This document shows positions 246 to 30,365 of a stretch of DNA of 64,000 nucleotides, piece by piece. The DNA lies in contig JAIBCL010000003.1 of assembly GCA_019694165.1 (NCBI GenBank), positions 1 through 64,000 of the forward strand, given 5' to 3'. Below the pieces are notes generated by a model that was not told the origin of the DNA, ran no database searches, and saw nothing but the letters and a program-made list of their open reading frames with translations. The position numbers and the translations under genes were made by a program. The first letter of the stretch is position 1, and each line of letters opens with the position of its first letter. The stretch comes from Verrucomicrobiaceae bacterium (GTDB lineage: Bacteria > Verrucomicrobiota > Verrucomicrobiia > Verrucomicrobiales > Verrucomicrobiaceae).

Positions 246-851
246 TCAAAACTCCACCACACCACCGCCGCCGACGAGGAACATCTCCCAGTCGCGCACT
301 TCGTGCTGGTTCTTGATGAGTTCGCTCACGGGCATCTCGCGCGGTGCCTTCGGCTGGCGGAGCAGCGCGAGTCCGGCTTCGTGGGGAAGCTTGCTGCCTT
401 TGCGGCTGTTGATGCGCTTGTCGGCGAGCACGCAGTTTTCCCAGTTCGTTTTGCCGCCGCGCGAGAGCGGCACGATGTGATCGATGTTGCCCTCGTGCGG
501 ACGGAGTTTGCGACCGGTATACTGGCAGGTGCCGCCGTCTCGCTCCCAGATGGCTTTGGCGCAGAATTTCGGCCGGCGCTTTGGCACTTTGTCGAAGCGG
601 GCGAGCACGAGCACGGTGGGCACGCGAATGCGACGGCTCACAGTGCCGATGGAGTTGTCGCCCTCGCGCACGGGGAGCTGCACCCAGTCTTCCCAACGAA
701 CGGGCTGCATGTTGTCGTTGCCCATGATGTCGAGCGCTGTGGCTGCGCCGGTGGCCATCATGCTGAAGGCGTCGGCAGCGGTCTTCACGTCGATGGCCTG
801 CCAGTTCCGGTTGAGCACCAGAACGGTGGCTTTGTTCAGCACGTCGCTCAT
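246..851 (-). CDS. HNH endonuclease
   Basis: 201-residue HNH-family nuclease of the common stand-alone bacterial type (COG1403-like). The N-terminal part (about 1-100) is the family's usual beta-rich region. The nuclease motif follows: Cys109 in CQYTG, Asp124-His125 in the IDH segment, then Asn139 and Cys140 in NWENC and Asn148 in KRINSRKG. These are the residues expected for a metal-dependent beta-beta-alpha-metal fold acting on DNA or RNA. The start at 851 is the first in-frame ATG. It lies downstream of the Ro60/TROVE gene on the same strand, separated by about 450 bp that include a probable terminator, so it may be transcribed separately. Whether it cuts nucleic acid as part of the Ro/tRNA locus is inference from position only. 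Confidence 0.85.
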   Translation of the reverse strand: MSDVLNKATVLVLNRNWQAIDVKTAADAFSMMATGAATALDIMGNDNMQPVRWEDWVQLPVREGDNSIGTVSRRIRVPTVLVLARFDKVPKRRPKFCAKAIWERDGGTCQYTGRKLRPHEGNIDHIVPLSRGGKTNWENCVLADKRINSRKGSKLPHEAGLALLRQPKAPREMPVSELIKNQHEVRDWEMFLVGGGGVVEF

Positions 852-2733: not shown

Positions 2734-2896
2734 GTGTGTTGTTGGGTGGGTTGGTTGTTGGGAGGAAAAAGTAGTCATGCGCTTCAGCGCGTGACCGTGT
2801 GCTTCGGCTTCAGCGAGACCTTCTCGGTCTCGCGCGTCCGTGCGGGCTAAAGCCCTACACTACTTTTGAATTGGGGAGAAAAGTGACCGGAGAAAT

Positions 2897-2953
2897 CCAG
2901 CCGCAGGCACACCCGCCCGCCGCCAGAACGCTCTACCACTGAGCTATTGGCCC
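2897..2953 (-). pseudogene. tRNA 5'-half fragment next to the TROVE gene
   Basis: On the minus strand GGGCCAA-TA-GCTC-AGTGGTA-GAGC (2953-2930) is a canonical acceptor 5' strand and D-arm with the normal GG. The expected anticodon arm, T-arm and 3' acceptor strand do not follow; the sequence becomes GC-rich and unrelated. It is the array member closest to the TROVE start, about 160 nt upstream. Confidence 0.6.
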
Positions 2954-2961
2954 ACGTTTGC

Positions 2962-3033
2962 AGACCATGCCGGATTCGAACCGGCGACCGTTTCGTTAAC
3001 AGCGAAGTAACTCGAGTCTCACTGCCCCAAAGT
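2962..3033 (-). pseudogene. tRNA-Asn(GUU)-like 3' half with shared leader block
   Basis: The anticodon arm TTCG-CTGTTAA-CGAA (3006-2992) gives GUU, and the T-arm GCCGG-TTCGAAT-CCGGC (2985-2969) is fully canonical. No D-arm is present. In its place is a block, GGGGCAGTGAGACTCGAG followed by TTACTTCG (to about 3033), that recurs at three other places in this region. No encoded CCA. Confidence 0.6.
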
Positions 3034-3100
3034 TGTGGCATGGGCTTTTCAGCCCGTGCGTGTTTGAAAAGAATCGCGGAGAAAAGCAGACAGGCTCTAA

Positions 3101-3211
3101 CTGAGGAGCCGGGACTCGAACCCGGATCTGGCTTTCGCCGAACCCCTGCTCATGGGCACCGCACTTCAGTTTGTCGTGTTGGAGCGAAGAAATCCTGTCT
3201 TCACTGCCGCG
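3101..3211 (-). pseudogene. tRNA-like element (GCG-type loop) with shared leader block
   Basis: The T-arm CCGGG-TTCGAGT-CCCGG is canonical. The acceptor ends CTGA (near 3169) and TCAG (near 3101) pair partly. The best anticodon arm is GGTT-CGGCGAA-AGCC (loop reading GCG), with U33 missing. The leader-like block GCGGCAGTGAAGACAGG plus ATTTCTTCG lies upstream at about 3211-3183. No CCA end is encoded. Confidence 0.5.
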
Positions 3212-3301
3212 AAATGGAATGACCAGGCGAGCTGTCGCATCGCCGGATCGAAAAGGGAAAAGAACCGGGGAGGAAAACCGGCAAGGGGTTTCATCCGACG
3301 A

Positions 3302-3361
3302 GCGGATGACGGGATCCGAACCCGCGATGACCACGAAGTAACCCTCGCCTCGCTGCCCCGG
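3302..3361 (-). pseudogene. tRNA T-arm fragment with shared leader block
   Basis: The T-arm GCGGG-TTCGGAT-CCCGT (3325-3309) and a 3' strand CATCCGC are visible, but no anticodon arm could be placed. The leader block GGGGCAGCGAGGCGAGG plus GTTACTTCG (3359-3333) runs directly into it. Confidence 0.45.
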
Positions 3362-3438: not shown

Positions 3439-4254
3439 TCAATCGAGGAACGCCAGATTGTTCCGAGATGGAGCGCGGTGTTCCTCATTGATCAGCACGC
3501 GATGCCAGTCGTGCAGCACGATCGTGGCGTGGTCCGGATGACGGACGGCGCCTCGTGCGAACACTCCTGGATTGCGACGCATCTGACGCCACACCAGCTT
3601 CTTGGCGGCAGGTTTGCGCTGGATCAGCTTTTCATACTGCTCCTGCGTGATGCCCTGCGGATGCTGGCGATTGACGTAAACGATCTCGCCGCCGGTGCGA
3701 TAGAGCTGCTCGACGTAGTGCGGCTTGCTGCCGCCTCCACGTGAGATGGGCTCCCAGCGCAGGATAAGCTTCGGATCGACGGCCAGGGATTGCTCCACTG
3801 GCACGAAGAACCACTCGCCCTGTCGGCGGAAAGCTGCGTTGCGACGTCGCGCTGCGTTCCGTGCGCTCAAGTGCTTGCGCGCCTGAGCTGCGCGGACGGG
3901 CTCCGGCTTCAGCGCTTCCTTTGCCTGCATCACGGTGGATGCCGAGCCAGGAATCGCCGCCACGAACCATTCACGTTCGTCGTGACCGCAAAGGAACTTG
4001 TCTTTGCGGGTGCCGTCGGCGCTCTTCGCGAGGAGGAGCAGGTGACGGTCTTCCTTCACCTTGTTCAGGAGGAGGAATTCGACGCTGGCGAGACTGGCGT
4101 CGTCGCCACGCAGTGAGAAGAACTGGCCGTCGCGGTCACGACCGATGTCGATCGCGTAGCCGCTGGCGGGTGCTCCCCAGATGCGTCGTGGTGGCTCCAC
4201 TCGGAGCCGCGCGCCGATGGATTCAAAAGCGCGTTCAAGATGTTCGAGTTTCAT
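3439..4254 (-). CDS. Conserved-looking hypothetical protein in the Ro/tRNA locus
   Basis: 271 residues starting MKLEHLERAFESIG. I do not recognise a named family. The N-terminal half is mixed alpha/beta with segments such as GYAIDIGRDRDGQFFSL and KDKFLCGHDEREWFVAAIPG (about residues 100-125) that look like a folded globular domain with conserved C, H, D and E residues. The middle (about 130-165) is strongly basic with RKHLSARNAARRRN and could bind RNA. There is no signal peptide or membrane helix. It is transcribed in the same direction as the TROVE gene and sits between two groups of tRNA-like elements, so a role with those RNAs is a reasonable guess, not a demonstrated one. Confidence 0.75.
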   Translation of the reverse strand: MKLEHLERAFESIGARLRVEPPRRIWGAPASGYAIDIGRDRDGQFFSLRGDDASLASVEFLLLNKVKEDRHLLLLAKSADGTRKDKFLCGHDEREWFVAAIPGSASTVMQAKEALKPEPVRAAQARKHLSARNAARRRNAAFRRQGEWFFVPVEQSLAVDPKLILRWEPISRGGGSKPHYVEQLYRTGGEIVYVNRQHPQGITQEQYEKLIQRKPAAKKLVWRQMRRNPGVFARGAVRHPDHATIVLHDWHRVLINEEHRAPSRNNLAFLD

Positions 4255-4461
4255 AATGGAATCTTCGAATCATCACCCGTGCCATTTGCTCCCGAAGGAG
4301 CGCGCTGGACGGGCGTGACAGCGATCTTCCAGATGATGTGACGCCAGCGGGAAGATGCGCTGGCTAGCTGGTGGGTTGCTTCATGATGTTGGGATGGTTT
4401 GAGTTTGAGAAAGGGAATTGCGGAGAAAGCCGGCCGGAGAAATGACGCGCCGGTTGCCCGG

Positions 4462-4553
4462 CGAGTCGGCGGGATTTGCACCCGCTACACCTTGGTTCTA
4501 GCAAGTGCTCTACTGAATGAGCTACGAAGTAACTCCGGCCTCACTGCCGCAAA
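4462..4553 (-). tRNA. tRNA-like gene, AGA anticodon (Ser-type), with shared leader block
   Basis: D-arm GCTC-ATTCAGTA-GAGC (4522-4507), anticodon arm CTTG-CTAGAAC-CAAG (4505-4491, reading AGA) and T-arm GCGGG-TGCAAAT-CCCGC (4485-4469) are all clear. The variable loop is short, unlike a normal serine tRNA. The 5' acceptor strand is displaced: the shared block GCGGCAGTGAGGCCGGAG plus TTACTTCG precedes the D-arm directly, and only GAGTT/GACTC can pair. No CCA end follows. The T-loop already has G at position 55, like the dense array. Confidence 0.6.
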
Positions 4554-4576: not shown

Positions 4577-5113
4577 TCAGTCGTCGCGCAGACGAGCGTA
4601 GAGGCGGCCATCGAAAGTTTGGCCATCGCGCCGATACTCTCGGCGGAGAAGCGGGGCCTCGACGATGAAACCGTTCTTCTCGAGCACGCGAGCCGATGCG
4701 CTGTTCAAGACGAAGACGTGCGCCGTGATGCGCTCGAGGGCGAACTCGCGAAAGCCGAGCCGCACGACATATTGCACCACCGCGCTCATGATGCCACGGC
4801 CCCAATACGGTTTCGCCAGCCAGTAGCCGATCTCCGACGCGTGCTCTCTGCCGCGCCCACCCGGAGCCAGCTCGATGGTGCCAATCATCCGCTCCGTCTC
4901 ATCGCGAATGGCCCAGATCGTCTCGCGACCATTTCGCGACACATCGTCAGCAACACTCGCGATCCACTCATCCGCCAGCGCGGGCGGATACGGATATGGC
5001 ACCACCCGCGTGTAGCGACTGAGTTCGCGATCCTGCGAATGCGAGATGATGTCATCGCGATCCGCAGGAGCGATGGGGCTGAGGTGAATGGTTGGTGTGA
5101 CTTGGTGGATCAT
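4577..5113 (-). CDS. GNAT acetyltransferase (RimJ/RimL-like), array-embedded
   Basis: 178 residues from MIHQVTPTIHLSP, an N-acetyltransferase using acetyl-CoA. Family signs are the EIGYWLAKPYWGRGIMSAVV segment (the Q/R-x-x-G-x-G/A acetyl-CoA loop, here WGRGIM) and the late ITAHVFVLNSASARVLEKNGF segment typical of RimJ/RimL-type enzymes, ending LYARLRDD. An upstream ATG at 5239 is in frame, but it would overlap the tRNA-Lys gene, so the start at 5113 is chosen. The usual substrates of this family are protein N-termini or amino groups of small molecules. Some GNATs acetylate aminoacyl-tRNA, which makes its place in a tRNA array interesting but proves nothing. Confidence 0.85.
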   Translation of the reverse strand: MIHQVTPTIHLSPIAPADRDDIISHSQDRELSRYTRVVPYPYPPALADEWIASVADDVSRNGRETIWAIRDETERMIGTIELAPGGRGREHASEIGYWLAKPYWGRGIMSAVVQYVVRLGFREFALERITAHVFVLNSASARVLEKNGFIVEAPLLRREYRRDGQTFDGRLYARLRDD

Positions 5114-5215
5114 GCTGATGTGAATGTGAGATCGAAAAGGATGGTGAGACGATAGCATGGAGCAAGGAGCGTGGAGGAGCTTCAGACTCCCATGCTCCTC
5201 GCGCCCTGCCGAAGC

Positions 5216-5290
5216 TGGTCGGCCCACAGGGACATGCACCCTGCTCCGCCGGTTAAAAGCCGGCTGCTTCGCTGTCTAAGCTTTGGGCCG
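5216..5290 (-). tRNA. tRNA-Lys(UUU), non-canonical elbow
   Basis: Acceptor CGGCCCA/TGGGCCG pairs perfectly. Discriminator A, encoded CCA at 5216-5218. The D-loop lacks GG. Anticodon arm GCCGG-CTTTTAA-CCGGC. T-arm CAGGG-TGCATGT-CCCTG has G55. It lies between the upstream GNAT gene and the divergent lipoprotein gene. Confidence 0.88.
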
Positions 5291-5341
5291 AAAAAGGGAA
5301 CTGACTTGTGTCGCGTGCGTGAACTGCATAGGCTTGCGCGC

Positions 5342-5707
5342 ATGAATGCCATTCGCTGGTCGCTGATGATGGTCGTGGCTCTGTTCACTGTCGGCTGCAC
5401 AAACCCAGAACTCGTTTACAAGGTGCCGCCTGCGAAAGACGGAACGGTTTTGGTGTTGGGCTGCGTGAAAACACAAGGACAGCAGCCCTGGCATCGAGGT
5501 CTCACGGCTAGGCGAGCCATCGAGCTGGCCGGAGGGTTTGACCTGTTTGCCAACCAGAGGCGAGTGCGGATCATCTCGCGCATCATCGAGCGTTCAGAAG
5601 GCGAGCCCATGACCGCGCGTCGTGTCGATCTTCGTGAAAATCATTCGGATTATCCGCTCCAGAATGGTGATGTTGTGATCGTCCAAGAGAAAGTGCCGGT
5701 CTTCTGA
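5342..5707 (+). CDS. Small SLBB-like lipoprotein
   Basis: 121 residues from the ATG at 5342. The start gives a lipoprotein signal, MNAIRWSLMMVVALFTVGC, with Cys19 as lipid site. The mature part resembles one SLBB/soluble-ligand-binding module of polysaccharide-export proteins: a GTVLVLGCVKTQG strand pair, TARRAIELAGGF, then VRIISR and a final YPLQNGDVVIV. Known SLBB proteins act at the outer membrane in capsule or exopolysaccharide export, but this copy stands alone with no Wza-type partner. It is the only plus-strand protein gene inside the array. An upstream in-frame ATG at 5171 would run through the tRNA-Lys gene and is rejected. Confidence 0.75.
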   Translation: MNAIRWSLMMVVALFTVGCTNPELVYKVPPAKDGTVLVLGCVKTQGQQPWHRGLTARRAIELAGGFDLFANQRRVRIISRIIERSEGEPMTARRVDLRENHSDYPLQNGDVVIVQEKVPVF

Positions 5708-5726
5708 TAATGGCGGTTAACTAATC

Positions 5727-5802
5727 TGGTGCTCATGGCAGGAGTCGCACCTGCACTGGCGACGCCCTCGACGTCGTGTCTCTGCTGTTGGGCTACGTGA
5801 GC
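5727..5802 (-). tRNA. tRNA-like, GAG anticodon (Leu-type), non-canonical elbow
   Basis: Acceptor GCTCACG/CATGAGC (6 of 7 pairs), A73 and encoded CCA at 5727-5729. D-loop AACAGCA. Anticodon arm CGACG-TCGAGGG-CGTCG reads GAG but lacks U33. T-arm GCAGG-TGCGACT-CCTGC. The variable loop is 5 nt, whereas a normal leucine tRNA has a long variable arm, so the amino acid identity is uncertain. Confidence 0.8.
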
Positions 5803-5812
5803 GAAATGAAAT

Positions 5813-5889
5813 TGGCAACCCTGGCGGGATTTGAACCCAGCGTTGTCCGCTTGAAAGGCGGGTGTCCTGTCCAATTAGACGACAGGGTC
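5813..5889 (-). tRNA. tRNA-Glu(UUC), canonical elbow
   Basis: Acceptor GACCCTG/CAGGGTT, G73 and encoded CCA at 5813-5815. The D-loop keeps GG (ATTGGAC). Anticodon arm CCGC-CTTTCAA-GCGG. T-loop TTCAAAT is canonical. It is one of only two dense-array members with a normal T-loop, and it also keeps the normal D-loop GG. Confidence 0.88.
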
Positions 5890-5906
5890 GTGTCTTGAGA
5901 AGAAAA

Positions 5907-6000
5907 TGGCGGAACCCCGAGGACATGCTCCTCATGCCGCGCTGTGGCGGCACGATCTCTTTAGCAAAGAGTCCCGGCTCGCTGGTCCGGTTGGCGTTCC
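5907..6000 (-). tRNA. tRNA-Ser(GCU), non-canonical T-loop
   Basis: 94 nt. Acceptor GGAACGC/GGGTTCC, G73 and encoded CCA at 5907-5909. Anticodon loop TTGCTAA. Long variable stem TGCCGC/GCGGCA as expected for a serine tRNA. T-arm TGAGG-AGCATGT-CCTCG with A54, G55 and U58. Confidence 0.85.
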
Positions 6001-6009
6001 TTGATGAAT

Positions 6010-6086
6010 TGGCACTCCCGGAAGGACTTTCGCCTCCAACCTCCGCGTTCGAAGCGCGGCGCTCTATACATTGAGCTACGGGAGCG
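6010..6086 (-). tRNA. tRNA-Arg(UCG), non-canonical elbow
   Basis: Acceptor GCTCCCG/CGGGAGT, G73 and CCA at 6010-6012. D-arm GCTC-AATGTATA-GAGC has no GG. Anticodon arm CCGCG-CTTCGAA-CGCGG. The T-loop CGAAAGT is the only one in the array without C56. Confidence 0.87.
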
Positions 6087-6091
6087 TGAAG

Positions 6092-6234
6092 TGGTGCCCC
6101 TGGCAGGAGTTGCGGCTCCTGCCGCCGTGCCAAGTCTGCTCCGCGCCTCACGACGACGCGCTATAGCGCTTTGGCGCTGCACCCGCACTAGACCGCTTCT
6201 GAGGCGGTTGTCTCTGCGTTGGACTACAAGGGCA
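6092..6234 (-). tRNA. tRNA-Leu(CAG) with large insertion in the variable region
   Basis: 143 nt. Acceptor TGCCCTT/AGGGGCA, A73 and CCA at 6092-6094. Anticodon arm ACCGC-CTCAGAA-GCGGT (6208-6192). The stretch between the anticodon stem and the T-arm (about 6123-6191) is 69 nt and contains the palindrome AGCGCTATAGCGC, related to the insertion in the member at 6938-7075. The T-arm GCAGG...CCTGC has a 10-nt loop, AGCCGCAACT. The gene may be inactivated or may carry a structured variable arm. Confidence 0.7.
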
Positions 6235-6240
6235 TGAAAA

Positions 6241-6315
6241 TTGCGGCCCTGGATGGGCTCGCACCATCAACTCTGCGCTTCAAAGGCGCATGCTCTCACA
6301 TTGAGCTACAGGTCT
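6241..6315 (-). tRNA. tRNA-Gln(UUG), non-canonical elbow, CAA end
   Basis: Acceptor AGACCTG/CAGGGCC has two mismatches. G73 is followed by CAA instead of CCA. D-arm GCTC-AATGTGA-GAGC, anticodon arm TGCGC-CTTTGAA-GCGCA and T-arm GATGG-TGCGAGC-CCATC are intact. Confidence 0.78.
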
Positions 6316-6319
6316 GAAT

Positions 6320-6420
6320 GAGCGAAGGGCTAAGGGTGAAGAGCAAAGAGGTCCGAAGACCGCGTCGCGTGCTTTTGCGATGCTTTGGACTCTTCGCTCT
6401 TTGCCCTCTGCTCTACGCTT
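6320..6420. repeat. Imperfect inverted-repeat element inside the array
   Basis: Arms of about 34 bp (6320-6354 starting GAGCGAAGGGCTAAGGG, and 6387-6420) are imperfectly complementary around a 32-nt centre. It interrupts the otherwise tight tRNA-Gln to tRNA-Met spacing and looks like a small palindromic insertion. Confidence 0.7.
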
Positions 6421-6426
6421 CTGAAT

Positions 6427-6502
6427 TGGTCGGTCCGGCTGGATTTGCACCAACATCTTCCGGGTTATGAGCCCGACGCTCTTGCTGTTAAGCTACAGAC
6501 CT
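6427..6502 (-). tRNA. tRNA with CAU anticodon (Met-type), non-canonical elbow
   Basis: Acceptor AGGTCTG/CGGACCG (A1-G72 mismatch), A73 and CCA at 6427-6429. D-loop AACAGCA. Anticodon arm CGGG-CTCATAA-CCCG. T-arm GTTGG-TGCAAAT-CCAGC. CAU could be elongator Met, or Ile after lysidine modification. Confidence 0.87.
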
Positions 6503-6511
6503 TCATTGAAA

Positions 6512-6589
6512 TGGCGCTTCCGCGAGGACTTGCACCTCGAGCCTCCACCTTCGCAGAGTGGCGTGCATGGACTCTTACACCTCGGAAGC
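6512..6589 (-). tRNA. tRNA-Arg(GCG), non-canonical elbow
   Basis: Perfect acceptor GCTTCCG/CGGAAGC, G73, CCA at 6512-6514. D-stem GTGT/GCAC. Anticodon arm CCACT-CTGCGAA-GGTGG. T-arm CGAGG-TGCAAGT-CCTCG. The spacer to the next gene is 4 nt. Confidence 0.88.
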
Positions 6590-6593
6590 AAAG

Positions 6594-6669
6594 TGGACGT
6601 GCGCCCCGGACTTGCACCGGGTAAGGTGGACTTGCGAACCACTGGCTCGGCTTCTTCGCCTTGCGCACG
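6594..6669 (-). tRNA. tRNA-Cys(GCA), non-canonical elbow
   Basis: Perfect acceptor CGTGCGC/GCGCACG with U73, the cysteine discriminator, and CCA at 6594-6596. The anticodon arm GTGG...CCAC holds the loop TTCGCAAGT with GCA. T-arm CCCGG-TGCAAGT-CCGGG. Confidence 0.84.
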
Positions 6670-6679
6670 ATGTTGAAAT

Positions 6680-6754
6680 TGGGCTTCCCAGCCGGTTCCG
6701 CCCCGGCTCCGTCTCCTTCACAAAGAGAAGTGCTGCTGTTACACCATGGAAAGC
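6680..6754 (-). tRNA. tRNA-His(GUG) with G-1, non-canonical T-loop
   Basis: The 5' end has the extra G (position -1, at 6754) opposite C73, the hallmark of histidine tRNA. Acceptor CTTTCCA/TGGGAAG, CCA at 6680-6682. D-loop AACAGCA. Anticodon arm TCTCT-TTGTGAA-GGAGA. T-arm GCCGG-GGCGGAA-CCGGC, with G54, G55 and G58. Confidence 0.88.
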
Positions 6755-6767
6755 ATCTTGATTGAAA

Positions 6768-6843
6768 TGGGGCCTCCGGTGGGTTTCGCACCCACATCGA
6801 CCTGTTTACAAAACAGGTGCCTTTCTGTGTCGGCCACGGAGGC
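6768..6843 (-). tRNA. tRNA-Thr(UGU), non-canonical elbow
   Basis: Perfect acceptor GCCTCCG/CGGAGGC, C73 (unusual for Thr) and CCA at 6768-6770. Anticodon arm CCTGT-TTTGTAA-ACAGG. T-arm GTGGG-TGCGAAA-CCCAC. The D-loop has no GG. Confidence 0.86.
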
Positions 6844-6849
6844 GTGAAA

Positions 6850-6923
6850 TGGTGCGGCCAGCCGGAGTTGCACCGGCATCTCAGCCTTGGCAAAGCAGTG
6901 TCCTGCTGTTGAACGATGGCCGC
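6850..6923 (-). tRNA. tRNA-Gly(GCC), non-canonical elbow
   Basis: Perfect acceptor GCGGCCA/TGGCCGC, A73 (Gly usually has U) and CCA at 6850-6852. D-arm GTTC-AACAGCA-GGAC. Anticodon arm CTGCT-TTGCCAA-GGCTG with one mismatch. T-arm GCCGG-TGCAACT-CCGGC. Confidence 0.85.
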
Positions 6924-6937
6924 ATTGAGTTGACGAA

Positions 6938-7075
6938 TGGTGCGCCATGCCGGTTCTGCCCCGGCGTGTCGAGTTTGGGTATGCGGCGCGATAGCGCTAC
7001 TCAAGGGGCGCGGAGCACTGACTGCATCAGCGCGGGAGCGCCAACACTCACATGTTGCTGTTACATCAATGGCGC
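6938..7075 (-). pseudogene. tRNA gene with about 64-nt insertion in the anticodon loop
   Basis: Perfect acceptor GCGCCAT/ATGGCGC, A73, CCA at 6938-6940. D-arm ATGT-AACAGCA-ACAT and T-arm GCCGG-GGCAGAA-CCGGC are intact. The anticodon stem TGAGT/ACTCG (7050-7046 and 6974-6970) encloses 71 nt instead of 7, including the AGCGCTATCGCGC core of a repeat also present in tRNA-Leu(CAG). The original anticodon is lost. The 3' loop bases and A73 would allow Val, which is otherwise lacking as an intact gene. Confidence 0.8.
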
Positions 7076-7079
7076 AAAC

Positions 7080-7154
7080 TGGCCGCCGGAGTTGGAATCG
7101 CGCCAACCTCTGCGGGTCTTCGGCCCGCCGCTCATCTGTCTGAGCCATCCGGCG
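7080..7154 (-). tRNA. tRNA-Phe(GAA), non-canonical elbow
   Basis: Perfect acceptor CGCCGGA/TCCGGCG, G73 (Phe usually has A) and CCA at 7080-7082. D-arm GCTC-AGACAGAT-GAGC. Anticodon arm GCGGG-CCGAAGA-CCCGC, with C at 33 instead of U. T-arm GTTGG-CGCGATT-CCAAC. Confidence 0.84.
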
Positions 7155-7165
7155 ATGAAAATGAA

Positions 7166-7239
7166 GAGTCCCTCCGCGTGGTGACGCTCCGCGGTCTGCC
7201 GGTTATCGACCGGCTGCTGTGCTGTTGAGCTACGGAGGA
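7166..7239 (-). tRNA. tRNA-Ile(GAU), non-canonical elbow, CTC end
   Basis: Acceptor TCCTCCG/CGGAGGG, A73, then CTC where CCA is expected. Anticodon arm GCCGG-TCGATAA-CCGGC. T-arm CGCGG-AGCGTCA-CCACG with one mismatch. The D-stem is shortened and the loop starts AACAGCA. Confidence 0.77.
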
Positions 7240-7245
7240 TGAAGA

Positions 7246-7318
7246 TGGCTCCCCAGCATGGACTTGCACCATGACGTTCGGTTTAACAGACCGACAGGCT
7301 CCTTTACCTCACCGGGGA
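7246..7318 (-). tRNA. tRNA-Asn(GUU), G55 T-loop
   Basis: Acceptor TCCCCGG/CTGGGGA, G73 as in asparagine tRNAs, CCA at 7246-7248. D-arm AGGT-AAAGGA-GCCT retains GG. Anticodon arm TCGGT-CTGTTAA-ACCGA. T-arm CATGG-TGCAAGT-CCATG. Confidence 0.88.
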
Positions 7319-7328
7319 AAACCAAAAG

Positions 7329-7410
7329 TAGTGCCCGCACCAGGATTTGAACCTGGAACCGCGGCCGTTAGAAGCGGCGCATGCAAAATGATCCGTTACA
7401 CCTTGCGGGC
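7329..7410 (-). tRNA. tRNA-Arg(UCU), canonical elbow, no encoded CCA
   Basis: Perfect acceptor GCCCGCA/TGCGGGC, A73, then CTA instead of CCA. D-loop with GG (AACGGATC). Anticodon arm GCCG-CTTCTAA-CGGC. T-arm CCAGG-TTCAAAT-CCTGG. It looks like an ordinary cellular tRNA sitting within the array. Confidence 0.88.
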
Positions 7411-7422
7411 GAAATAGGCTGA

Positions 7423-7950
7423 TCAATTACGCAACCGCGCGAAAATGAGATCGTCGTAGAACTTCCCGTCGCAGATCACGGCATCGCGCAGCCGCCCCTC
7501 CATCACGAACCCGGCTTTTTCGAGCACACGAATGGAACGCTCATTCAGTGAGTACACCTCGGTCTCCATGCGATGGAACTCCAGATCTCGGAGGACGCGA
7601 TCTGACACGAGGCGAACAGCTTCCGTCATGATGCCGCGACCCCAAAACGGCTCGGCGAGCCAATAACCGAAATGACAAGTGTGACTGCGCTCAAACTTCC
7701 CTGGTCGCAGTCCAAGTGTGCCGACAAGTTCACTGCGAATTTCGATGGCGAACACATGGCCGGCAGCACCGGACGCGCACTTCTCCAGAAATGATCGCCC
7801 GTCAGACCCGGTGTAAGGGTGCGGAAACCTTCCCATGAGAAAACGGGCAACGCTGGCGTTGTTGGCACAACGGACGAGATCGTCTAGATCGGACATCTGG
7901 ATCGGGCGAAGACGACCGCTGCACTGGGGAAGCGTGAGTTCAGAGAACAT
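7423..7950 (-). CDS. GNAT acetyltransferase (RimJ/RimL-like), second array-embedded copy
   Basis: 175 residues from MFSELTLPQCSGRLRP. It has the same architecture as the GNAT at 4577-5113: a HFGYWLAEPFWGRGIMTEAV acetyl-CoA loop (WGRGIM), then METEVYSLNERSIRVLEKAG and a FARLRN end that mirrors the other copy's LYARLRDD. The two are clearly related but diverged. I chose the start at 7950 over an upstream ATG at 7986, because homologues start near this point. The gene lies between tRNA-Arg(UCU), 12 nt away, and a tRNA remnant, on the same strand as the tRNAs, so it is probably on the array transcript. The substrate is unknown. Confidence 0.86.
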   Translation of the reverse strand: MFSELTLPQCSGRLRPIQMSDLDDLVRCANNASVARFLMGRFPHPYTGSDGRSFLEKCASGAAGHVFAIEIRSELVGTLGLRPGKFERSHTCHFGYWLAEPFWGRGIMTEAVRLVSDRVLRDLEFHRMETEVYSLNERSIRVLEKAGFVMEGRLRDAVICDGKFYDDLIFARLRN

Positions 7951-7998
7951 AATGCTGAAACGAAATGTGAGTCGCTCAATGCACATTAGGAGCGCTGA

Positions 7999-8058
7999 TG
8001 GTGCAATCGCCTTGGTTGCCGGCGATCGGGCGAAAGCCAGTGACTTGCGACACCTTGG
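7999..8058 (-). pseudogene. tRNA remnant upstream of the second GNAT gene
   Basis: It has a 3' end CGATTGC-A-CCA (CCA at 7999-8001), and its 5' side follows the usual TTTC spacer after tRNA-Pro. No matching 5' acceptor strand or anticodon arm could be drawn; only a CGCC/GGCG stem is visible. It is best read as a decayed array member. Confidence 0.35.
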
Positions 8059-8064
8059 TGAAAC

Positions 8065-8139
8065 TGGTCGGGCACCCCGGTTACGCTCCGGGTGTCTCTC
8101 GGTCCCAAGCCGAGCGGATTCCTATCTTCCTCGTGCCCG
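8065..8139 (-). tRNA. tRNA-Pro(UGG), non-canonical elbow
   Basis: Perfect acceptor CGGGCAC/GTGCCCG, A73, CCA at 8065-8067. Anticodon arm CTCGG-CTTGGGA-CCGAG. T-arm CCCGG-AGCGTAA-CCGGG with A54, G55 and U58. The D-arm is short. Confidence 0.85.
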
Positions 8140-8146
8140 ATGAAAT

Positions 8147-8222
8147 TGGCGGTCGCGACGGGTGATGCTCCCGCTCTCTCTTGCCTGACAAGCAAGCGAG
8201 TCTGCTGTTCCTCTTCACGACC
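8147..8222 (-). tRNA. tRNA-Asp(GUC), non-canonical elbow
   Basis: Acceptor GGTCGTG/CGCGACC, G73, CCA at 8147-8149. D-loop AACAGCA. Anticodon arm CTTGC-TTGTCAG-GCAAG. T-arm GCGGG-AGCATCA-CCCGT. Confidence 0.87.
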
Positions 8223-8228
8223 TGAAAA

Positions 8229-8313
8229 TGGTGCGGCGTCACGGTAACGCTCCGTGCCGGTCAGTGACTCCTGCTTTACAGGCAGGCGCGTGTCTTTAAC
8301 GCTCTACCGCCGC
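8229..8313 (-). tRNA. tRNA-Tyr(GUA), non-canonical elbow
   Basis: Acceptor GCGGCGG/ACGCCGC (one mismatch), A73, CCA at 8229-8231. Anticodon arm CCTGC-CTGTAAA-GCAGG. The extended variable arm with GTCA/TGAC is expected for bacterial tyrosine tRNA. T-arm CACGG-AGCGTTA-CCGTG. Confidence 0.86.
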
Positions 8314-8317
8314 GAAA

Positions 8318-8385
8318 TGGTGGACCCGGACGGTAATGCTCCGTCACCTGCTGCGTGCAACGCCATGCGCGACAGCTCAATTCAC
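8318..8385 (-). pseudogene. Degenerate tRNA, UGC-type loop (Ala-like)
   Basis: The 3' side is intact: T-arm GACGG-AGCATTA-CCGTC, CGGGTCC, A73 and CCA at 8318-8320. The anticodon loop is probably GTTGCAC (reading UGC) on a weak stem. The expected 5' acceptor strand GGACCCG is not found. With A73 this would fit alanine. Confidence 0.5.
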
Positions 8386-8387
8386 TG

Positions 8388-8452
8388 TGGTGCGGAGCAG
8401 ACTTTGCACAGTCGGAGGGCGGCAATACAGCCAAGCATCCCTTCTACACCGC
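8388..8452 (-). pseudogene. Degenerate tRNA-like gene, anticodon unclear
   Basis: Acceptor GCGGTGT/GCTCCGC (6 of 7), A73, CCA at 8388-8390. The T-arm is shortened to GACT-GTGCAA-AGTC. The D-arm is truncated and the anticodon arm GGC-TGTATT-GCC has a 6-nt loop. At 65 nt it is about 10 nt shorter than its neighbours. Confidence 0.5.
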
Positions 8453-8500
8453 GAGTGCGTTTGGCTGCTGACTCATGAGTCCACGCAGCCGCTGATAAAA

Positions 8501-8576
8501 TGGCACGGCGGGCGGGTAATGCTCCCACATCGACGCGGGTTTGGAGTCCGCCGCATTGCTTGTCTGCCACCGCCGT
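8501..8576 (-). tRNA. tRNA-Trp(CCA), non-canonical elbow
   Basis: Perfect acceptor ACGGCGG/CCGCCGT, G73 as in tryptophan tRNA, encoded CCA at 8501-8503. Anticodon arm GCGGA-CTCCAAA-CCCGC. T-arm GTGGG-AGCATTA-CCCGC. It is the first clear member in the direction of transcription. Confidence 0.86.
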
Positions 8577-28919: not shown

Positions 28920-30365
28920 ATGAATCCCTCCGCCACCACCCCGCCGTGCTGCCAGCCATACAAGAACCTGCCGCCGCTTGCCGGCATCGCCACATTCGAG
29001 GAGGCTGCACGACCGGGCCTCTCCATCGACGAGTGCGTGGACCGCGTGAAGCGCTTTCACTTTGCCTTCAAGCGCCTCATGCAGATCCTGGAGGCGCGCC
29101 TCACCGCCGAGCCGGTTTACGAATTGAAAATGGCATTCAGCCTTCACGCCCACTACTGTGCAGAGCACTGCACGGCGATGCGCGAGCGTGTGGCGGAGAT
29201 GCGCACTCCACCGCTCGGGCTGGAAAAAATCCCCGACCCGCATCTCGACCGCTTCTTCCACGAAATCCAGAACGCGCCGACAACTGAGGAACTGGTCGCC
29301 GGCCTCTACGTTTTCGCGTTTCCCGCGCTCGAGCGCAGCCTGCGCCGGCATATCGAGGACACAAATCCACTGGCCGACCACCCGACCATCCGCCTGTGCC
29401 GCTTTGCGCTCGTCGAGATCGGCGAGGCCGTGCGCTACGGCGAGGCGGCAGTGCAATGCCTCGTCGATGACACGACCCGTGGGCACATGAAACCGTGGGC
29501 GGACCTGCTCGAGGCGCTGCTGCGCTCGGCGGGCGATCTCGATGGCTCGCAGCCGCACGCGCCCTGCGATCTGGCACCGGTGCATGGGGACAAACCCTTC
29601 GTCTTTGACAGAATCCCGAGACGCGATGCCCGCTTCCCTGATCCATACAACATGGGGGTGCATGCCGAAGAGTTCCTCTACGACCCGCGGTTCCGCTCGC
29701 GGGACAAGACGCTGATGATGTACTACAAGCGGCTGCGGGAGATCGACGTGCCTGAGATGATGGCGTCGATCCTCACCGAGACGCCCGACAAGCCCTGGGG
29801 CTACTACCGCGACATGACGCGCCAGCTCTGGGACGAGGCGCGGCACGCGATGATGGGCGAGGCCGGCTTCGTGAAGCTCGGCATCGACTGGCCGCGCCTG
29901 GTGATGGTGAACTTCACTTGGGCTCTGGGTCTGAACACGCAGTTGCGGCCCTGGGAGCGCCACGCCGTGCTCTACTTCATCGAGCAGGGTCTGATGACAA
30001 AAACCGGCAAGCGCTTCGAGTGGGAGGTGGGCTGCGAGTCCGGCGATCCCCTCGCGCGCACGTTCCAGGATTTTGACTGGGCCGACGAGGTGCTGCACGC
30101 CAGCATCGGCAGGGAGTGGTACGTCAGCGCCTTCGGCGATCAGAAGGAAGCCATCGACTACGGCAGCCGCTGCTGGAGCAAAGTGCTGCAAAACTGGAAT
30201 GACTGGCGCGAGGCGGGCAAAACGGAGCACCGCAACTGGTGGCCCGACCTTTACCGGGAGTTCTGTGCGCGCCACCACCTCACCCCCGATCCGCAGGCCC
30301 TCGAATTTCACACCACCTACGAGACCTCTCGGGCCGATCTGGAGCGGATGCCCGCGAGCGCATAA
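28920..30365 (+). CDS. Ferritin-like superfamily protein (putative di-iron)
   Basis: 481 residues from [20 protein letters not shown]. The protein is almost entirely helical and carries E/D-x-x-H pairs at helix positions typical of ferritin-like four-helix bundles: [18 protein letters not shown] (about 77-94), [30 protein letters not shown] (about 305) and [14 protein letters not shown] (about 395). These could hold a di-iron centre, so an oxidase or oxygenase role is possible. The upstream in-frame ATG at 28800 overlaps the opposite small gene and is not preferred. I do not recognise a characterised close relative. Confidence 0.6.

Follow-up and report, generated by a model that had tools for sequence, protein, structure and literature searches.

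The first 64 kb of contig C61 (JAIBCL010000003.1; 463 kb), from the 7.8 Mb genome of a Verrucomicrobiaceae bacterium, constitute the window analyzed here and carry on the minus strand, at positions 5216-8576, an array of 20 intact tRNA genes for 18 amino acids in 3.4 kb. Nearly all of these tRNAs share a coupled substitution in the elbow, A18 with G55, and the array lies beside genes for Y RNAs and a Ro protein. We consider it slightly better than an even bet (a probability of about 0.55) that the locus is a phage-type tRNA array resident in the chromosome, serving as a back-up translation module for damaged housekeeping tRNAs, with Ro and the Y RNAs handling damaged tRNA.

In a canonical tRNA, G18 contacts pseudouridine 55 (psi55), and C56 is the partner of G19; psi55 has been termed a universally conserved base of the elbow (PMC4810234). 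The title of one work in that paper's reference list links rapid translocation to the 18-55 pair. We searched the window for cloverleaves with loop positions 54-60 left free and a 3' CCA required. This strict search yielded 16 minus-strand tRNAs within 8576-5216 and no others on either strand of the 64 kb, and four further intact genes (Arg-TCT, Ile-GAT, Gln-TTG and Ser-GCT) were recognized by hand reading and homology. The canonical contact between G18 and U55 or psi55 is lacking in 18 of the 20 intact tRNAs, which carry G55 and in most cases A18, the two canonical members being Glu-TTC and Arg-TCT. Fifteen of the 16 strict-search genes do not have T55 (14 are G55-C56 and Arg-TCG is G55-A56), and 13 of these 15 have A18 when base 18 is assigned by a D-loop rule, the remaining gene being Glu with G18 and T55. 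G55 is also present in three of the four other genes (Ile, Gln and Ser), the sequence of the fourth, Arg-TCT, being canonical. Thus, the divergent structure that an earlier note on this DNA had ascribed to the array is present, and it is systematic (18/20 with G55) and not random.

We observed the same elbow in related loci. Since the patterns by which these loci were chosen demand G55 in two or three genes and leave base 18 unconstrained, the G55 fraction is biased in the following counts, which also ignore common descent: 258 distinct tRNAs of Verrucomicrobiota relatives include 211 with A18-G55, 11 with G18-T55, 0 with A18-T55 and 4 with G18-G55; the corresponding numbers are 502, 598, 11 and 8 for 1249 distinct tRNAs on viral contigs, and 823, 65, 1 and 22 for 1070 tRNAs of genome-contig loci. 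The case for independence of these observations is that both states are shown by every one of the 20 isotypes and by many families. Most array tRNAs in the relatives belong to the G55 class, which covers all 20 amino acids there. Within this class, bases 54 and 58 covary (mainly T-A, A-T, G-G and C-A), G19-C56 is mostly retained, and the D-loops keep A18-G19. Chance matching of the G55 pattern was considered and rejected: array-less loci give at most one match per strand to its loosest form in the stretches examined. The reversed pattern, used as a chance control, has only 2 matches in 388 genomes of the phylum.

Isolated elbow variants were also seen outside this group. The last gene of two plasmid arrays, in Nostoc (L203, 10715-10789) and Tolypothrix (L204, 10306-10380), is an Ile(GAT) with A18/G55 and G54-G58, the other genes found in those arrays being canonical; ARAGORN misses the L203 gene. 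In the haloarchaeal virus HGTV-1 (L377, ~30182-30252), Asp(GTC) scores as A18/G55 and the other three tRNAs found there are canonical. Yet another combination, G18 with C55 (T-loop TCC), makes up a third state of the elbow and occurs in 22 distinct viral-contig tRNAs, for example in L092. Laboratory-selected suppressor tRNAs with altered contacts between the D- and T-loops are known as well.

The array is a second set of tRNAs, as the earlier note had proposed, and not the host's only one. Rfam reports 55 tRNA matches in the whole host genome and, over the window, 9 array members at its gathering score. We read 45 housekeeping tRNA genes, which lie on other contigs or at a distance on C61 and between them serve all 20 amino acids; the array set is therefore supernumerary. 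All 45 have T54-T55, and all 44 distinct ones have G18. Encoded CCA ends, which had been singled out as a mark of the array, are indeed present in most of its genes but do not distinguish it, because 42 of the 45 housekeeping genes carry CCA too; within the array, CCA is absent from Arg-TCT, Ile-GAT and Gln-TTG and present in Ser-GCT. The two sets differ in other respects. The housekeeping set has Arg-ACG and no Arg-GCG, and chromosomal G55 tRNAs include 53 Arg-GCG vs 4 Arg-ACG. A short variable arm is likewise seen in 78 of 110 G55-class Leu tRNAs of the relatives' arrays and sets them apart from the five Leu tRNAs of the host.

Comparison of chromosomal copies indicates that the array tRNAs are maintained, since substitutions in their stems are compensated and their synthetase identity elements persist. 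Where both partners of a stem pair had changed, pairing was preserved rather than lost in ratios of 14:2 (G013/G003), 20:0 (G010/G017) and 30:2 (G359/G132), where G numbers denote genomes. Identity elements retained include Ala G3:U70 (49/50), Cys U73 (50/50), Asp G73 (48/48), Asn G73 (47/47), Ile A73 (77/77) and Leu A73 (107/109). The gene order D-P-N-E-V-I-F-G-R is common to loci L028 and L029 and viral L070/L150, and gene order is shared with the viral contigs L070/L150 and L099, which might reflect horizontal spread of a locus that is nevertheless old in this family. Random decay with no conserved set, the outcome that would have spoken against a functional array, was thus not what we found, and we reject a reading as random degenerate pseudogenes for most members; for Ala, Gly-TCC and Leu-CAG of the host genome we accept it.

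The limits 5216-8576 first assigned to the array are exact, and the 18 amino acids listed for it are all represented among its intact genes (Table 1). Read 5' to 3' on the minus strand, its order is Trp, a degenerate piece (~8460-8386), the Ala relic, Tyr, Asp, Pro, a GNAT gene, Arg-TCT, Asn, Ile, Phe, the interrupted Gly-TCC, Gly-GCC, Thr, His, Cys, Arg-GCG, initiator-like Met, Gln, the interrupted Leu-CAG, Arg-TCG, Ser, Glu, Leu-GAG, an SLBB gene on the opposite strand, and Lys. Beyond Lys lie a second GNAT gene, four Y RNA copies with an open reading frame (ORF) of 271 amino acids (aa) between them, Ro and an HNH gene. The Met tRNA resembles an initiator in having three G-C pairs in the anticodon stem and no 1-72 pair. 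Besides the 20 intact genes, three are disrupted (Ala, Gly and Leu). Strict search, hand reading and homology gave no intact Ala or Val tRNA in the array; of the two remnants that the earlier note had suggested, an Ala-TGC relic with a broken 5' half was found and a Val remnant could not be confirmed. Palindrome-rich, repeat-like inserts break Leu-CAG (6093-6233) and Gly-TCC (6938-7075), and related inverted copies are near the Ala relic; the stretches concerned include 6118-6150 and 8386-8418. Arrays of this type are easily missed, given that ARAGORN finds only 7 of the 20 intact members and Rfam only the 9 mentioned above, and their spread is therefore underestimated by standard gene finders.

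Table 1. Features of the array locus in the 64-kb window
Feature	Position	Strand	Basis
HNH endonuclease, 201 aa, conserved array neighbour, beyond Ro	246..851	-	Pfam HNH_4/HNH/HNH_5
Ro/Rsr protein, 490 aa	1306..2778	-	Pfam TROVE 64.9 bits (cut-off 23); vWA_Ro60 below cut-off
Y RNA copy, tRNA-like D-arm and T-arm	2885..3029	-	motif, fold; Rfam YrlA 33.7 bits, sub-threshold, 2927-2992
Y RNA copy	3074..3211	-	motif and fold, closing stem
Y RNA copy	3265..3360	-	motif and fold, closing stem
ORF, 271 aa, no Pfam match	3439..4254	-	homologue adjoining Ro in L030
Y RNA copy, array-type elbow (D-loop AG, T-loop TGC)	4420..4551	-	motif, fold; Rfam tRNA 30.8 bits, 4466-4527
GNAT acetyltransferase (Acetyltransf_3, RimJ/RimL-like)	4577..5155	-	Pfam
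tRNA-Lys(TTT), A18/G55	5216..5290	-	strict search
Small SLBB-domain protein inside array	5345..5707	+	Pfam; no homologue in other loci
tRNA-Leu(GAG), short variable arm, A18/G55	5727..5802	-	ARAGORN and strict search
tRNA-Glu(TTC), canonical G18/T55	5813..5889	-	ARAGORN and strict search
tRNA-Ser(GCT), long variable arm, G55, with CCA	5907..6003	-	hand reading
tRNA-Arg(TCG), G55	6010..6085	-	strict search
tRNA-Leu(CAG), T-loop interrupted by insertion	6093..6233	-	hand reading/homology
tRNA-Gln(TTG), G55, 3' end GCAA instead of CCA	6241..6315	-	ARAGORN, homology
tRNA-Met(CAT), initiator-like, A18/G55	6427..6502	-	ARAGORN and strict search
tRNA-Arg(GCG), G55	6512..6589	-	strict search
tRNA-Cys(GCA), U73, A18/G55	6594..6669	-	strict search
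tRNA-His(GTG), encoded G-1:C73, A18/G55	6680..6754	-	strict search and sequence
tRNA-Thr(TGT), A18/G55	6768..6843	-	ARAGORN and strict search
tRNA-Gly(GCC), A18/G55	6850..6923	-	ARAGORN and strict search
tRNA-Gly(TCC), anticodon arm interrupted	6938..7075	-	hand reading/homology
tRNA-Phe(GAA), A18/G55	7080..7154	-	strict search
tRNA-Ile(GAT), G55, without encoded CCA	7162..7236	-	match to L312 Ile
tRNA-Asn(GTT), A18/G55	7246..7318	-	strict search
tRNA-Arg(TCT), canonical T-loop TTC, without encoded CCA	7329..7410	-	hand reading/homology
GNAT acetyltransferase within array	7423..7986	-	Pfam; homologues in or at start of arrays L031, L032, L197
tRNA-Pro(TGG), A18/G55	8065..8139	-	strict search
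tRNA-Asp(GTC), A18/G55	8147..8222	-	strict search
tRNA-Tyr(GTA), A18/G55	8229..8313	-	ARAGORN and strict search
tRNA-Ala(TGC) relic, 5' half lost	8316..8376	-	match to Prosthecobacter L290 Ala-TGC
tRNA-Trp(CCA), A18/G55, first array gene	8501..8576	-	strict search

The proximity of Ro to the array is not an accident of a single genome. Close Ro homologues lie on the array strand in 8 of 14 long chromosomal stretches, 12 of 82 short ones and 3 of 32 viral ones; Ro is on the array's strand in all listed Ro loci and stands inside the array in L193, L217, L239 and L299. Window Ro is 51-76% identical to the Ro proteins beside other arrays and 45% identical to that of another virus contig. Among the 388 phylum genomes, the close Ro subfamily (>850 bits) occurs only in G000, G215 and G113, all three of which fall among the 14 array carriers (p ~4e-5); three other Ro matches listed score near 110 bits. 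We reject TROVE proteins in general as array partners, the genomes with weaker hits (G002, G012, G016, G018, G027 and G031) having no adjoining array.

The Y RNAs were recognized by the motif GG[CT]AG..GA...TT.CTTCG, which is present in 1-5 copies per Ro or array locus on the array strand (48 copies in 18 loci were folded); the 5.3 Mb searched contain no match away from such loci. Most copies fold with a closing stem in which the bases vary between copies and pairing is kept. In some copies (4551-4420 of the window, 2609 of L032), the tRNA-like part itself has the array-type elbow. Rfam YrlA reports two above-threshold copies beside the distant Ro of G016, an array-less locus. Other neighbours recur too: HNH genes of the same family stand beside 10 of the 14 long chromosomal array loci and adjoin many arrays on chromosomes, viruses and plasmids (Nostoc, Mycobacterium and other plasmids), and the GNAT gene within the window array, one of two in the locus, has homologues in other arrays. 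The 271-aa protein is 71% identical to one encoded at 16322-17158 of L030, which adjoins Ro in another genus.

A two-gene form of the G55 pattern marks the 14 array carriers, from several families, among the 388 genomes. A three-gene form matches at least 113 stretches in 84,980 species genomes, and among the matches listed nearly all are titled Verrucomicrobia, the remainder being some Oscillochloris/Chloroflexales, three Staphylococcus, where the match is to the non-proteinogenic tRNA-Gly with its different D-loop, and a small number of further stretches, perhaps chance matches or contaminated bins. The cultured Verrucomicrobium sp. BvORR034 and Geminisphaera colitermitum TAV2 are among the array carriers. 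At least 120 viral-contig stretches match as well. The one terminase family tried was found in only 1 of 11 viral records tested, so some of the other viral records may be host fragments. A ZnuA-type flanking gene is common to the window, G024 and G020, which indicates that residence of the array at this site is old. At L199 in G020, a remnant array (Ile, Phe, Cys, Pro and Glu) adjoins the ZnuA-type gene that is also seen in the window and L030, and there is no Ro. A 634-kb phage (LR745206.1, L376) encodes a Ro 49% identical to that of the window, and no tRNA array was found within 12 kb of it.

The altered elbow is suggestive of a back-up set for translation that is adapted to the absence of some normal tRNA modifications. 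A18 and G55 would remove the target bases of Gm18 modification and of psi55 formation by TruB, which the host genome encodes; members without T54 would lose the T54 methylation target, and replacement of Arg-ACG by Arg-GCG would remove the need for adenosine-to-inosine editing. On these grounds the set would need fewer modifications. The same elbow would change the surface read by many tRNA-binding enzymes, and its purpose may be either fewer modifications or escape from elbow-reading enzymes. Most likely the array is silent or low during normal growth and, by analogy with the Anabaena array, would be transcribed when the tRNA pool is damaged or translation is blocked, be it by tRNA-cleaving toxins, defence nucleases, translation inhibitors or phage attack. 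Its tRNAs, once processed and charged, would then replace the damaged ones on the ribosome, and translation could continue without the weak points of the normal tRNAs. Ro and the Y RNAs would bind damaged tRNA or deliver it to decay or repair, and the HNH protein may also have a part in the response. A wider proposal, which we put forward tentatively and do not yet favour, is that such arrays represent a second tRNA class across bacteria and large viruses, covering all 20 amino acids, with an A18-G55 elbow and no need of psi55, Gm18 or inosine 34: a modification-independent, nuclease-evading translation set coupled to Ro/Y RNA quality control.

Several observations weigh against a back-up module. 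The window copy is partly damaged by insertions, and with several units broken and Val and Ala missing, the set is incomplete and may be decaying. The altered elbow is dispensable for membership, given that Glu and Arg-TCT keep the canonical one, and arrays can persist without it, as those on Nostoc, Mycobacterium and Arthrobacter-type plasmids are canonical. U8 is missing in ~23% of chromosomal G55 tRNAs, and His G-1:C73 is retained in only 25 of 43. Ro is absent from most array loci within the stretch examined, many of these stretches being only 8 kb.

Other explanations account for part of the evidence. The array could be a selfish or relic element of phage origin, left over from phage translation modules and persisting through transfer without benefiting the host; similar arrays and Ro genes on viral contigs, a Ro inside the tRNA array of phage Atuin, the insertions in the window and the few tRNAs left in G020 beside the same ZnuA-type gene all point this way. 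We nevertheless judge it unlikely, because stems evolve by compensation between chromosomal copies, Ro and array are kept together in several genera, and the shared flank speaks for old residence. A decoy or sponge, in which the tRNAs would serve as substitute targets for tRNA-directed toxins or defence nucleases, to be cut or bound instead of the real tRNAs, without entering translation, seems to us a little less probable again. The altered elbow and the redundancy with housekeeping tRNAs suit it, neighbouring Ro and Y RNAs could dispose of cut decoys, and the tRNA-like Y RNA domain has been suggested to be a competitive inhibitor of anticodon nuclease (PMC7790460); yet acceptor-end identity elements such as Ala G3:U70 and Cys U73 are kept though a decoy has no obvious need of them, an initiator-like Met is present, and all 20 amino acids are represented across arrays. 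Of the functions that the earlier note had offered, a back-up translation set fits best. A pure decoy is less supported, given the retained Ala, Cys, Asp and Asn identity elements and the compensatory stem changes, as are the array tRNAs as Ro ligands: typical Y RNAs, the expected ligands, lie between array and Ro, and arrays also occur without a nearby Ro.

Least probable of all, in our view, are non-proteinogenic tRNAs that are charged, avoid EF-Tu and feed amino acids to enzymes, perhaps the array GNATs. Non-proteinogenic tRNA-Gly of staphylococci serves peptidoglycan synthesis, in cell-wall bridges. The staphylococcal genes likewise have G55 and the T-loop TGCAA, and GNAT genes are found in the window locus and in other arrays. 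However, the staphylococcal genes are without G19 (D-loop AACTCTTA), the GNATs match a RimJ/RimL-type Pfam family and not FemXAB, and a set for all 20 amino acids with an initiator-like Met fits translation.

A large natural collection of tRNAs with the coupled A18-G55 exchange would offer a ready experiment on the purpose of the 18-55 contact and its modifications. Should the array prove to be inducible and to serve as a back-up, chromosomes and viruses would carry a stress or counter-defence system acting at the level of translation, and bacterial Ro and Y RNA would gain a concrete substrate.

Among known systems, the window array belongs to the tRNA array units or L-arrays, being a dense, supernumerary cluster of many isotypes with an HNH gene of the same family beside it. 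Published L-arrays, such as the Anabaena trn operon and those of mycobacterial plasmids and phages, likewise comprise 17-30 clustered tRNAs for most amino acids with short spacers, have the HNH gene beside or inside them and occur on phages, plasmids and chromosomes (PMC5966550, PMC12803027, PMC10272220). The conserved HNH gene of mycobacterial arrays has been described (PMC5966550, PMC12803027), in embedded form and with the arrays regarded as putatively antidefence (PMC12803027), and the 26-tRNA Anabaena array stays silent until translational stress induces it, its repressor TrcR also controlling rtcB, an HNH gene and GNATs (PMC10272220). The elbow is where the window differs: almost every gene of the known L-arrays examined, on plasmids, is G18/T55, the Nostoc and Tolypothrix Ile-GAT being an exception, and we therefore reject A18-G55 as a general L-array trait. 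The short variable arm of most Leu tRNAs in its relatives is a further difference, as is the inclusion of Y RNAs and Ro in the Verrucomicrobiota unit, no Ro being annotated near known L-arrays in the stretches read.

The Ro side of the locus resembles the Ro/Rsr-Y RNA repair operons (rsr-yrlBA-rtcBA of Salmonella; Deinococcus Rsr) in joining a TROVE protein to adjacent tandem Y RNAs with a tRNA-like module, here four copies, on one strand (PMC7790460). It differs in that the partner is a tRNA array, YrlA scores are sub-threshold, and RtcB is encoded on contig C7 rather than in the same operon as in rtcBA-type loci. TROVE proteins have been noted in jumbo phages (PMC7824862). Arthrobacter phage Atuin has a Ro-like gene within an array of ~30 tRNAs, but its Ro is only ~27% identical to that of the window and the Atuin tRNAs found are all G18/T55; the HGTV-1 stretch read has TROVE, RtcB and several tRNAs. 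The staphylococcal tRNAs share G55 and the T-loop with the array class and are for Gly only, whereas the array class keeps A18-G19 and C56. The earlier note had held such a set to be undescribed. Arrays, HNH genes and phage TROVE proteins are published, but a literature search that lacked most subscription papers found no description of a coupled A18-G55 elbow in a whole tRNA set or of an array/Y RNA/Ro unit in Verrucomicrobiota, and both appear to be new.

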